Source: Trissonchulus latispiculum (taxonomy: Eukaryota > Nematoda > Enoplea > Enoplida > Ironidae). Taken from it: DNA of 64,000 nt. The translations under genes were made by a program, and so were the position numbers. Shown here piece by piece: positions 44,401-53,400 of the stretch. The stretch covers positions 1 to 64,000 of the forward strand of contig JASAND010022371.1 of the NCBI GenBank assembly GCA_030248195.1. Direction: 5' to 3'. The notes beneath the pieces were generated by a model. It was not told the origin of the DNA. It saw only the letters and a list, made by a program, of their open reading frames with translations, and did no database searches. The first letter of the stretch is position 1. Every line of letters starts with the position of its first letter.

Positions 44401-47400
44401 AAACTAGCTAGAATTAACTCGTTCAATCCGCGGCTTAAACTGGTAGGAATATAGGGGTCAATCCGTTTTATCCGTTTAATCCAGCATTAAAGAAACAGTT
44501 GTTAAAATTTTAATCCGGCTAATTTTTAATCCGTTTAATCTTACCATTTTAATTTTTAAAGAAAGATACCTTTGTAATATTTAAAAAAAACACAAAAAAA
44601 TACAACACCCTCGGAAAATGTGGTTCCCAACATTTTTTTCCCTATAATATTTATATAAAAAATAAGAGACGCCCGGGGATTGGGGGGAGTGGGGGGGCAA
44701 AAAAATAAAACACTATTATTGGGGGCGCCCCCAAGCGAGCGCGAGCGGCGCGGGGGGGGAGGGAGGGGTGGAGGATTAATAAAAAAGAAGAAAAAAAAAA
44801 AAAACACAAGGGGGGGCGGCGCGGCCGCAGCGGGGCCGCGCACAACAAAAAAAAAAAAAAAAAACAAAAAAAAAAAGAAAAAGGGAGGGGTTATGCAGGG
44901 GCAGTTTTGAGATTTTTTAACCGGCCGGGGGGATTTAAGTGACGCCCGGCAAGCGCTGAAAATGATTGGGTGCGCGTTGATAGATTTTATATTGTAAGTA
45001 AAGGAGGAATTGTATTATATATATATTAGAAATATTGATTTTAGGAATTTTTTTTTTTGTAATGAAGTGGGTAGGATTGGGATTCCAAATTCCGCTGCAG
45101 TCTGTCACGACTACTGACTCTTGGGATAGCAACCACTTCGAGTACACGGAAGGCTGACGCGTTTATCGGTGAGGATAAACTTAGGCACAGGATCTTCGGA
45201 AGGTGATTTGTCCAGAACCAAAGATTCCTTGCGGCCAACCTGGATGGGGTCTAGGTGTGAGTTCGTTTGATTAGGATGGGGATCCAAGGAATATCAGTAG
45301 CAAGCGGGGTCGACACTTGCCGTTTCTGAGTAGCTGAATCAGGTCTGTATCAAAGAACACTGATTGAGAATCTTGATTGCCAAATCAAGATTCTAGTACG
45401 ATGATGATGATGTCTTTGTCGGGACCAAGGGTTCAATTTAAACACTTACTTGTACAGGGACTGTGAATCCAAATCTTGATCGATCCTTATGTCCTAGTCA
45501 GTAGATTCAGTCGTAGGACACAACAGTTTAATGACAATAGCTATGATGATATTGGCAATAATGAATTATGATAACAAAGCAGGGAACACGATTATTATAG
45601 TGTGTATAAATGATAAAACAGATTATAACAATTCACAAACTATATACTGCGTAAACAATTAGACAGACAATAATAGTTTGCCAGAGTTGCCAGTATCTAT
45701 TATACCCAGATTACTAATTGTTGTTGATAGGGACAAGGTTCCGGTGTCTAAACTCAATTCTACTCTATCCCTCTTTCTTTCCTTTCTTGACTAACTGACT
45801 AGCAAGTTATTAACCTATTACCAAACTCTATCGTGCAATCCCTATATGCTTGTGTTCGTGTGATTAGATTATAACTCTTCTACCGTCCTCCTTACTAAAG
45901 GACAAAACAATATCAATAAGATAAGCTACTAAACAATTTAAGTTAACTAAATTAAAGGGATTAGTAGTACAAAGTTTCCGGTCTTTGGGTGAGCCCGAAA
46001 TGCTAGTAACAATAGCACTTTCGGATGCTATACGGTTGCCAAGGGTCAAACACAAGGGGGGTCCGGTTGGGAGAATTCCTGGTCCGTTTATGGGTGTTAG
46101 TACAGGTTATGTTTGATTTAATCTCTTCTTTAAATTCTCTAATTCTGGTTGACTTGTAGAACACCGAATAGATTAGGCCCAGGGGCAGGGGGTAACAACC
46201 CCTTCAATGAGACGAACGATAAGCTCAAAAAGATTCATCTTTTAGCTTGAAAGAAACGAATAAAGTTCAATTTGAAATGCTGAAAAAGGATGATTTCCAA
46301 GTTCGTTGAATTAGGTTTTAGGTCCCGTATTCAATTCTGGTGCCTGACTTCACAAATAGTCTCTGCCTTAATCGTTCCACAAAAAGGTCTAATCCGACTT
46401 CCTCAATGTACCTTAATAGACTGATTCCGATCCGACTAACTGATCCAATATCTGTGCGTCCTTCTTCGGACTGATAACCAATAATGCCGATCAAATAAAC
46501 TACTGAGACTTCCGAAATACTGACTGTCTAGGCTTGATTCCGGCAGGACCACGTTCGCTTCCGCACCTGAATCAAATGGGTTAAAACCCATTAATACAAG
46601 TTATAGGTGCGGGATTCGAACCCAGCAACCATTACTCACACTTTGGCTTTCTGAACTTGAAATAAACTCATACAGATCCAAATTGTTGTGAAAGCTTGCG
46701 ATTCAAGCGGATTAACACAAATTTTGATGGTTTGAGTAAGATCGCGATATTTAAAATTGTTCTTAAGTAAAACGATAATTTTCAAGACAATTTCTTGCGT
46801 TCTTGTGCAAGAAATTGTGCCTTTGATGTGAAACTGTGATTCCAACTTGATTTCTCTTTGTACAGTCTGCTTTTGTACGATTAAAACCTATTACTCGAAT
46901 TTGACATACTTTTGGGTCCTTTGACAGTAGATAGGTTTCCGTTTATTCGACTCACACGAGAAACATTAATTTAGTTGAGGTGACCAAGTTTAGGACCTTT
47001 TTGTTTTCCGGGTCCTAGCAAGGAAGGTAACAACTTCCTACTTTTGATAAGAGTTACTTAATTAGAAAACAGTTTACACGCGAGTTTGACCAGGACACAA
47101 TACTTGAATGTAGAACTTTTAATTTCGCGAGTTTAAGTGAGGAAGGTAACAACTTCCTGCTCTTAACAAACATTAGTAGTTAAAAGAGAGTTAACGCATA
47201 AATTTACTAAAAACGTCATAATTTAGTGTAGAACTTCTGTTCTCTATTGGGTTCTACTAAGGGAAGGTAACAACTCCCTTTGTTATGAGTGTTAAACGTT
47301 GAAAACTGGATAATTTCACAAAATTGGCGATTTTAGCCTTTATTAGAAGATGGTTCTGGTGCCCTATCCATAATACTTACGTAACTAACGGTTGACTTGC

Positions 47401-50400: not shown

Positions 50401-53400
50401 CTACTATTTTCCTTTTCGTTTTCTTGTTGTCCTTGTCCTCGGCCAAAAGTTCAAGCGAGGACAACTGCTAGGCCCAGAAGAAAGAGGCCTAGCAGAGAGA
50501 GAAAGAAGAGAAAGAGGGAAGGGGGAACAACACCTGACTCAGGTGTAGTCTGGGAGGTAGACAACCTCCCAGACAATAAAAAAGGAAAAAGGTTTGCCTT
50601 AACTTTAAGGCAAAGAAAACCAATTTTAGTACACTCCTTTTTGGAGTGATAAGATTACGAAACGAAAAGTAATCTTATAAAAACATTTTCGTTCATAACT
50701 TTCTTATTATTGGGAGTTGAAAAGTCGGGTTTGGATTTTTTGAATCAGTATCAAATTCTCTTTCATATAAGCCCAAGTCATTTTTCGACCAAAAAATGTC
50801 AAAATTAACTAATTATTACCTAACTAACGCATAATTGTTACTAATTAACCCTACCTAACTACGTACTTAGCTATTTTGCACTTAGTATTGAACCATCTTC
50901 CAATATTAGTTGTTCTAGATGTACATTACCATTTTATAGGCAATTTTACGACTAATTTTTGCCTTAATTATGCACATAAACTTTGTGTTTTAGGTTTATG
51001 ACTTCCTGCTGATTAACATGTGAGCGTTAGTGATTAAATTATCTTGACGGGGAGGGCTATACTTGACTATTATGAGAGGTACTCACCAATTCTCCTAAGT
51101 TTAGTTTAGTTGTCGATTGTTATCTTCGTGTGGAGGTAACAACTCCATTTACTAAAGGGACGATAAACCGAAGGGATTAGGGGTGAAGTGTCCCCCTTCA
51201 CTTTTCCTGGATTAGTATCATTAGTAGTCACGCGTTAGTAGGATTTAATTAAACTTAAAAATCGCGTTTAAGACTAGTATTAATAGTTTAATTAAATGTG
51301 AACCATGAACCCTATTGGTGAATTTCTCGATTTCTACTAAATACTGGCAACTCTAGCTAAACAAACATAATAATCTATACAATTATTGCTTGGACATCAT
51401 TTGACAATTACATTCCATGTTGATGATCTTCTTTCTTCTTCACAATTCCATGGCATGAGAATTCATCCTGGTGATTTGATTATCTTGAAACCTCTTTTAA
51501 AGCTGATTTTAGATTACTTTTAACGTTTTATTTTATTAATTCCATTACATTTGAACTAGATTCGCCATAACTGCATCGGTTGCCAAATTAGCCTGACCCA
51601 TTACATAAGCACCTCCATGAATGAAAACCATTACTGGAATTTTTTCCGCAGTCTAAATTAGCAATAAACATGTTTAAAATTAAACCGGCATCAAGTATTT
51701 TATTTTGCTTGTAGTTATTGAACAAAACAGAAGACATAAAAAAGGACAAATAAAAGAAGCTTTTATGTTAATTTCATCAATAGTAATAAATTATATAGTA
51801 GTAGTAAAGATGGCTGGTGGTGAAACAAATGTCTATAACTCAAACATCTTCTCACTAAAAATACCATGAAGTGTAAGTGAGCTTTATCGGGTTAAGGGGG
51901 GGGTCGTCCATTTTTGGCCGATGTTTCGACCATCTCCGATTTTGCTCATTTTCACATATTTTGTTCTCCGATTGGTTTATTTTAACGAGTTTTTGAAATT
52001 AAAGTCGGATCTTTTACGGTTAATGAGTAATTTCACTTCAAAGTTGAGATCGCATGTGTTAAACATAGGAAACTGGACATAGTGTCAAAAAATCTCGAAA
52101 CTGGGCAAAGATTATCAGCATGATTTGGTATCACTAGAAACGTCTACTTGTATACTTTAGTTTGTTGGAATTAGATTTTTGAGTTAGGCTTTTAAATTTT
52201 TTAAAATAATTTTTGAATCTTGCTGACTGTGAAATTTGACGTTTTTCTTTTTTGAAAACTGGGGTGTTTCAAATTTGATCAAGCATAACATAAATTGAAA
52301 GGCCTAACTAAAAAATCTGATTCCAACAAATCACAGTATATAAGTAGACGTTTCTAACAATACCAAGTGATGCTAATAATCTTTGCCCAGTTTCGAGATT
52401 TTTTGTCACTAAAAATTTGGTTTTTTACCAAAATTTTGAATTCTTTCGATTTTTTGCCTATTACGTGAGACCATTGCAATCAGCAGCTACCAAATGCCAA
52501 AATATCTCGTTTCTAGTTATTTCTGATGGCTGTAGTTCAGTGTTGACTACAATTATTCCAGCTCAGTAGCCCAACGTGATCGCTGCATCCTAATCTGTCG
52601 TTCTGGTACGCATATAGCAAAAATATCGATTTTTTCAAATTTCTCAAAATATGACAAATTTGACATCAATCGAAAGCTCTTAATGCGGGGAACATTTTTT
52701 CTTGGGCTATGGTCCGCAAATGCACCGAATTGAAGTTAATGGCCGTTAAAGGGTTTTGTTATCTAACCTCAACGTTGGCCTTGCTGCTCCTTAAAAGTCG
52801 TTAAAAAGGCACGTTTAATCAATTTAATTTAATTTAATCAATCGTTTAATTAAATCACGTTTAGCCTGCCAACACCGGGACAAAATTAATTCTTTAGATG
52901 AATTTTCAAATGTACACACCATTGAAGCTCCAAAATCGAAGACTGTATAAGGAAAATTGCCTTAGTCTCAAGCGATACCCTCGTTTCGCCCATTATTACA
53001 ATTGCAAGCAGTTGATAGCTCGTAACTCGTGGAGACATAGATGAAACAACTCAATATTTAAACTTGGTACGTACAACATGTGTGGCTACATTATGTGTAA
53101 AAATGAGGGAAATTCGTGACTATAAATTTTTTCATGGTGGACCCCCCTTAAGCTTACATCTAAAATTGGAGCATAGATGTTGAGATAGAGACAGTCTTCA
53201 GAAAAACCTTCAGTTGATCCAGTGAACAAATTCTGTTGCATGCATCCCTTTTGAGGTGTGGTTGCATTTAAAACGTCCGGCCATGGGTCTACGGCTTTCG
53301 CCTTCTAAAGTAAGACAGAAATTGTCTGCACAAATGCCTTGAATTGAGTACTCCTAGAAGTTATACATTTTTAATGGTTAACAAAATAAAGATTAACGTT

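Follow-up and report, generated by a model that had tools for sequence, protein, structure and literature searches.

A 6.5-kb hairpin-rich solo long terminal repeat of a putative giant Ty3/gypsy-type element in the nematode Trissonchulus latispiculum

The window analyzed in this study is a stretch of 64,000 nucleotides from the enoplid nematode Trissonchulus latispiculum (positions 1 to 64,000 of contig JASAND010022371.1, assembly GCA_030248195.1). A first inspection of the sequence (the original prediction) had reported a non-coding array of about 40 distinct hairpins at 45064..51201. It was found that this array lies inside a dispersed unit of 6492 bp at 45058..51549, which is, as judged from sequence, a solo long terminal repeat (LTR) of a giant Ty3/gypsy-type element whose sense strand is the minus strand. 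The genome search that the original prediction had called for matched the interval on 29 contigs of the species' own 734-Mb assembly, which is a lower bound because only the best candidates were scored. The homologous copies end together at window positions 45058 and 51549; the predicted array was real, while its borders had to be moved. The 5′ end in sense (TGTAATGG; 51542..51549, minus strand) and the 3′ end in sense (TCATTACA; 45058..45065, minus strand) form a short inverted repeat, and the copies whose ends were inspected have the termini TGTAATG...CATTACA, of the TG..CA type. The 18 long copy rows diverge by 3.0-15.8% (median 12.2%). Nine copies are bounded at both ends with no interior adjoining (L001, L004, L005, L007, L008, L009, L011, L013, and L015), and a perfect 4-bp target duplication was found in five of them (L004, L007, L011, L013, and L015). 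The window copy itself is flanked by TTTT and TTTG.

Does a coding interior belong to this unit? On contig C14649, two LTRs (21626-28119 and 42265-48779, both on the minus strand) flank an interior of 14.1 kb, and the whole element is about 27.2 kb long. These LTRs were placed by end searches, and the conserved block of each was also found; of the second LTR, the ends and this block are what was covered. In sense, the order is LTR, a candidate primer binding site (TGGAGCCCCCAGTGAGGA, 17 nt past the 5′ LTR), a gag-env-protease frame of 2505 amino acids (aa), a NADAR frame, a 482-aa frame, a candidate polypurine tract (GTGGAGGT) before the 3′ LTR, and LTR. The 2505-aa frame has Pfam matches to Retrotrans_gag (113-209), CCHC (313-328), Fusion_gly (1351-1614), and an aspartyl protease (1998-2092), of which the Fusion_gly match scores 22.2 bits, under the Pfam cut-off of 29.8. 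The NADAR frame and the 482-aa frame (L031 8702-9901, L037 965-2413) follow, the latter having no Pfam match above cut-off. No reverse transcriptase (RT) frame was seen in the C14649 copy in the frames and Pfam scans of the pieces read, and this pol-less element seems to depend on pol from other elements. Other copies have similar neighbors. The left flanks of L003, L006, and L012 are mutually alike over 5.1-5.7 kb, and their opposite strand encodes gag, an Env-like protein, and a protease. The left flank of L012 runs on into a second, cut LTR, and the interior-LTR junction of C14649 was found again by eye beside L016 and L026. Thus, the TG..CA ends, the 4-bp duplications, and the pair of repeats in the same orientation around a gag-Env-like-protease interior establish the identity and the orientation of the LTR.

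A pol gene appears to be associated with the same LTR. The L006 frame on the LTR contig C18094 has the same gag-env part but a different protease at its end, which is 98% identical to the protease of C5232, another contig that carries an LTR copy. The C5232 piece has Pfam matches to a protease (22-113), RVT_1 (408-568), RNase H (656-761), H2C2 (1073-1131), and rve (1146-1244), that is, the order protease-RT-RNase H-integrase as in Ty3/gypsy. Thus, the LTR appears to be shared by pol-bearing and pol-less elements. Other protease frames of the genome (among the best 150 of 2454 candidates) are related at 59-88% identity, and some of them are long and uninterrupted, with lengths fitting both kinds of element. 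Past the integrase and near the end of the C5232 piece, the open frame (L039) has a sub-threshold match to an OTU-type cysteine protease at residues 1561-1643. With the env-protease region as query, none of 4783 candidates reached E<=0.001. A search with the RT region found 4480 sequences, where two animal proteins lead by E-value and the highest identity (74%) belongs to P0004, from a metagenome contig labelled Nitrospirales (presumably eukaryotic).

I counted perfect Watson-Crick stems with loops of 3-25 nt in 45064-51201, dropping two-letter stems and taking 30 dinucleotide shuffles as the control. There are 36 stems of at least 7 bp (shuffled mean 8.1), 16 of at least 9 bp (mean 0.53, maximum 4), and 13 of at least 10 bp (mean 0.13, maximum 1), while the nine stems of at least 11 bp and the five of at least 12 bp have no counterpart in the shuffles. 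The excess over chance claimed by the original prediction is thus borne out; its figure of at least 14 stems of 10-13 bp compares with 13 of at least 10 bp in this count. Its total of about 40 hairpins is fair provided that short stems are counted, the window copy having 49 non-overlapping stems of at least 6 bp and 19 of at least 8 bp. Also as predicted, the stems of the interval differ from one another; in the rest of the window, many stems of at least 9 bp instead come from a small number of recurring motifs (19.2-19.6, 27.0-27.2, and 33.7-35.6 kb). The mean folding z of the interval in 150-nt steps is -1.4 on the plus strand and -1.1 on the minus strand, the remainder of the window giving -0.5 and -0.6; regions of about 16-20 and 32-36 kb, which contain repeated copies of single motifs, have an equal or lower mean. 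Folding is strongest over 49650-50700 and peaks again at 47401 (z -5.0, plus strand), and 50350-50700 reaches -8.2 on the minus strand and -8.5 on the plus strand (100 shuffles per strand).

The interval encodes no recognizable protein, as had been stated; its longest stop-to-stop frame is 147 codons (100 shuffles: mean 105, maximum 169). A miniature inverted-repeat transposable element (MITE) or foldback element was rejected, since the stems differ mutually and the inverted ends are about 8 bp, with no long terminal inverted repeats. Nor is the interval a hairpin-bearing replicon in its own right, as had been suggested, since it belongs to a giant retroelement as its LTR. An organelle origin, for which no direct search was made, is disfavored by the dispersal of the copies and by the gag-env-pro interior next to the LTR. 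Rfam gave no match at gathering scores in the window and, at E<=5 on 44900-51800, four weak matches, each far under its gathering score. A hammerhead-like core noticed by eye near 47870 was dropped; its GAAA side is absent and it has no Rfam listing. There was no phage match for the window and no tRNA gene in it by ARAGORN in the bacterial setting.

Are the hairpins conserved? The window copy was compared with 26 other distinct copies, among which the divergence of the whole LTR is 10.6%. In the five stems of at least 12 bp, 0.49% of sites differ, compared with 3.6% in loops and 8.1% in flanks. The corresponding values for stems, loops, and flanks are 4.8, 6.8, and 11.4% for stems of 10-11 bp (n = 8), 6.4, 5.2, and 6.1% for 8-9 bp (n = 6), 6.8, 9.5, and 9.1% for 7 bp (n = 12), and 8.1, 7.3, and 10.1% for 6 bp (n = 18). 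The 13 stems of at least 10 bp differ at 3.05% on average, versus 10.6 +/- 2.3% at 300 random placements (minimum 4.2%), and the stem conservation is little altered without L002 and L026. Long stems are selectively conserved relative to the surrounding DNA; the effect is strong in the longest stems and weak or absent in short ones, and many of the latter may have arisen by chance. Since the longest hairpins are kept far better than adjacent DNA, they probably serve the RNA of the element, although one of the five longest is a heat-shock element and may be kept as DNA.

The sense strand has a presumed promoter, TATAAA (50933..50938), invariant in all 25 covering copies, and a presumed poly(A) signal, AATAAA (50118..50123), invariant in all 26. 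Each is the only invariant site of its kind on either strand; three more AATAAA sites in sense are retained in 22-25 of 24-27 rows, and the six TATAAA and seven AATAAA sites of the other strand are all variable. The AATAAA lies in the 30-nt loop of an 8-bp stem (GTTGGGGG/CCCCCAAC; 50088..50133, minus strand) that is intact in 25 of 26 copies. With borders inferred from sequence, R (the terminally repeated region of the RNA) would be about 0.8 kb and U5 (the unique 5′ region) about 5 kb. The densest hairpin cluster (50433..50678, minus strand) probably lies in R, because it is located between the sole invariant TATAAA and the sole invariant AATAAA. It consists of consecutive hairpins at 50649-50678, 50593-50614, 50548-50574, 50530-50546, 50465-50495, and 50433-50464. 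Of these, the 50649 hairpin is perfect in 24 of 25 other copies and shows A-T to G-C pair exchanges, while those at 50465 and 50548 are perfect in 16/26 and 14/26. The original prediction had begun this dense stretch at 50362; the cluster stands, while the 11-bp stem at 50362-50402 is peculiar to the window copy. Two hairpins have been exchanged as a whole. The 9-bp hairpin at 50593..50614 is replaced by the palindrome TTTGACTTAAGTCAAA in L004, L008, L010, and L017, with a mixed, unpaired form in L023. The hairpin at 49755..49780, which has a UUCG loop in sense and is perfect in 21 of 26 other copies, is swapped for a different perfect 14-bp hairpin in two copies, L009 and L018 (L018 = L030).

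The remaining long stems, all listed on the minus strand, are scattered over the LTR. Those of 12 bp are at 48734..48760 (perfect in 20/24 others), 47807..47853 (with an inner 7-bp hairpin; 21/24), 46787..46818 (18/20), and 45367..45394 (15/16). A 10-bp stem at 49013..49035 is perfect in 22/25, and a 9-bp stem at 49923..49953 is conserved. A strongly conserved stretch at 46605..46623 (minus strand), within a conserved block of the presumed U5, reads GGGTTCGAATCCCGCACCT in sense and looks like a tRNA T-arm.

In the window copy, the plus strand of the LTR has six occurrences of the heptamer GTAACAA, five of which are closed as a loop by a perfect 5-6-bp stem. This loop is borne by four different stems, never by more than two in 100 shuffles. 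The hairpins are at 46001..46017 (stem TGCTA, with 6 bp more past a bulged base; the same in 23/23 rows), 46187..46203 (AGGGG), 47021..47039 and 47140..47158 (both AGGAAG), and 51131..51147 (TGGAG), while the site at 47262..47279 has an imperfect stem. Elsewhere in the window (10 occurrences) and on the minus strand of the LTR (one), the stems are 0-2 bp. Among the 27 distinct copies, which are related and not independent, stems reach at least 4 bp at 99 of the 124 plus-strand occurrences. The stretch at 46994..47290 (minus strand) consists of three diverged units in tandem, each about 120 nt long and with one site, and the gap pattern suggests that the unit number varies by one among some copies. 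In sense the loop is UUGUUAC, presumably resembling the anticodon loop of tRNA-Asn; a mimic of that loop was considered and set aside, as the loop variants argue otherwise.

The longest hairpin, with a 13-bp stem at 50005-50040, was revealed to be a perfect heat-shock element (50009..50036), with three TTCnnGAA in a row. The pattern is present in 26/26 copies, two variant copies having changes in spacer bases only, and it had no match in 100 shuffles of the window. It sits inside the best conserved block of the LTR (49918..50157), where four 60-nt bins have a mean majority share of 0.976-0.996. A second promoter near the heat-shock element is possible.

How might this LTR work? Transcription on the minus strand would start just past the TATAAA at 50938 and end past the AATAAA at 50123. 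The dense hairpin cluster, being within R, would then occur at each end of the genomic RNA, while the U5 of about 5 kb would form a very long structured leader ahead of gag. Hairpins in the R of retroviruses function in poly(A) control and strand transfer, and those of the LTR resemble the TAR and poly(A) hairpins of human immunodeficiency virus. The R hairpins and the stem bearing the AATAAA may similarly act in poly(A) control and the first strand transfer. The GTAACAA (sense UUGUUAC) hairpins could be a multi-copy protein recognition site, most likely for Gag in packaging, and such a site would be usable by both the pol-bearing and the pol-less elements that apparently share the LTR. The heat-shock element would couple LTR transcription to heat-shock factor, making it stress-inducible, and the solo copies would come from LTR-LTR recombination. 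I consider it likely, from the sequence features, that the unit is a solo LTR of an element of about 27 kb, of Ty3/gypsy type and with an architecture like that of the planarian Burro elements discussed below, whose R hairpins and heptaloops act as RNA and whose heat-shock element gives inducibility. Within this, an RNA role of the hairpins is probable, and I infer the RNA function and its strand. The structured long RNA suggested by the original prediction fits with the selectively conserved long stems, the recurrent loop, and the cluster in the presumed R, but it is an LTR rather than a gene of its own. A further idea, that the R array and the heptaloops form a modular, kilobase-scale RNA code serving as a multivalent Gag packaging signal, with particle sharing between pol-less and pol-bearing elements and stress induction, is tentative and rather unlikely to hold in full.

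Several observations weigh against the RNA reading of the LTR and its attachment to the giant element. Among stems of 6-9 bp, conservation barely exceeds that of the flanks (at 8-9 bp, 6.4 vs 6.1%), and several long stems are often broken elsewhere; the 11-bp stem at 47519..47546 (minus strand) is perfect in only 7/24 other copies, the 10-bp stem at 48651..48674 (minus strand) in only 9/24, the 50548 stem in 14/26, and the private stem at 50362..50402 (minus strand) in 0/26. The 13 stems of at least 10 bp contain 14 double changes versus 165 single or other changes, with 79 gap cells. Wobble changes have no strand preference (90 G.T vs 86 A.C cells), which makes the strand test uninformative. 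No evident GT-rich stretch follows the AATAAA, and the presumed start lies some 900 nt upstream of the heat-shock element. Four of the nine bounded copies, including the window copy, lack a perfect duplication, and 86 bp of the right flank of L009 are duplicated 322 bp left of the LTR. The LTR pair of C14649 is the only one located at both ends, and on C5232, where the sequence was read up to 9000, pol and LTR are linked by the shared contig.

Some of these points would suit stems that act at the DNA level, as palindromic transcription-factor binding sites of a long enhancer, RNA folding being a by-product. The longest stem being a heat-shock element in every copy, with its two variants changed in the spacer only, fits well with this; so do the retention of the stem sequence, not of pairing alone, and the wobble changes without strand bias. 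Such an enhancer is nevertheless unlikely, because the 49755 and 50593 hairpins swap their sequence yet remain hairpins and a single loop sits on four distinct stems; arms of 10-14 bp around loops of 3-8 nt are also unlike dimer sites. The whole-hairpin swaps and the perfect arms would in turn be expected if functionless stems were made or kept by template switching of RT or by repair, which the original prediction had offered as a cause. As the main cause this is very unlikely, given the predominance of single over double changes noted above and the finding that the longest arms also retain their own sequence (0.49 vs 8.1% in flanks), which correction of one arm by the other would not preserve. 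Ginger-like DNA transposons have TGTNR ends and a 4-bp duplication, and a Ginger-type transposon was entertained until the LTR pair on C14649 was found. The short inverted ends, the 4-bp duplications, and the copies without an adjoining interior would agree with an independent non-autonomous element of that kind lying by chance beside retroelement genes. The direct repeats flanking gag-env-pro on C14649, the cut second LTR on C16819, and the same interior junction by L016 and L026 make this slightly less probable still than template switching.

The giant gypsy elements named Burro in planarians have env in frame between gag and pol, called the first such case in 2019 (PMC6431247). As far as described there, the present element resembles Burro in being giant and gypsy-like, in having env in frame between gag and protease/pol, and in having extra host-type domains (PMC6431247). 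It differs in size, about 27 kb versus more than 30 kb (PMC6431247; PMC11410931 for the size of Burro), and in its extra domains, NADAR and a sub-threshold OTU instead of BIR, MATH, BCL2, and ankyrin (PMC6431247). Pfam scans of the pieces covered, which include part of the pol-type element, showed no BIR, MATH, ankyrin, or BCL2-type domain. Also unlike the Burro description, a pol-less form apparently shares the LTR here. Since size and extra domains differ and the comparison is by description, not by sequence, membership in Burro is not claimed. In three of four scanned RT homologues (P0026, P0035, and P0085), a viral fusion-glycoprotein match lies ahead of protease and RT, and two of these three also have a match to gag or CCHC; the three suggest that the env-before-pol order is more widespread than Burro.

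In length, the LTR is like those of Ogre (1.9-6.5 kb), which are elements of dicot plants whose description there includes no hairpins (PMC6431247). With the LTRs of retroviruses and animal Metaviridae, it shares TG..CA inverted ends, a TATA box, and AATAAA, and the conservation of their long R regions has been tied to stem-loops (PMC3601003). The presumed R of about 0.8 kb, the U5 of about 5 kb, and many more hairpins set it apart from the LTRs described in that source (PMC3601003). ONSEN of Arabidopsis has a heat-responsive LTR whose transcription is tied to heat-shock factor (PMC3907296). A conserved heat-shock element in the LTR is common to both, but ONSEN is a plant Copia element (PMC3907296), whereas here three TTCnnGAA units stand in a row and inducibility is predicted. 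NADAR has already been published in gypsy elements and in Tx1 long interspersed nuclear elements (LINEs) of oysters (PMC12477816). No title among the literature matches listed deals with giant hairpin-rich LTRs, which is not proof of absence.

Other features were noticed in the window. A 347-aa frame at 20664-21704 has a NADAR domain (Pfam) and, by eye, a PHD-like start; its sole homologue, P0001, combines NADAR with CCHC knuckles in the manner of LINE ORF1-type proteins. A 22-bp perfect match relates a conserved hairpin of the LTR (AATGGGT/ACCCATT; 46567-46588) to a tandem repeat (20405-20426) just upstream of this frame. Three minus-strand frames at 23592-26492 have no Pfam match and presumably resemble the protease and capsid genes of Polinton/Maverick elements. 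Adjoining the LTR, 51560-51700 on the minus strand resembles, by eye, a carboxylesterase exon (HGGAYVMG).

In this LTR, the longest stems change about 16 times more slowly than their flanks. With dozens of diverged copies in one genome, it offers a data set for the evolution of retroelement RNA structure. The element behind it is a further case in which env lies between gag and pol, and its cargo is NADAR and perhaps OTU. The perfect heat-shock element in an LTR of animal type also makes a predicted inducibility directly testable.

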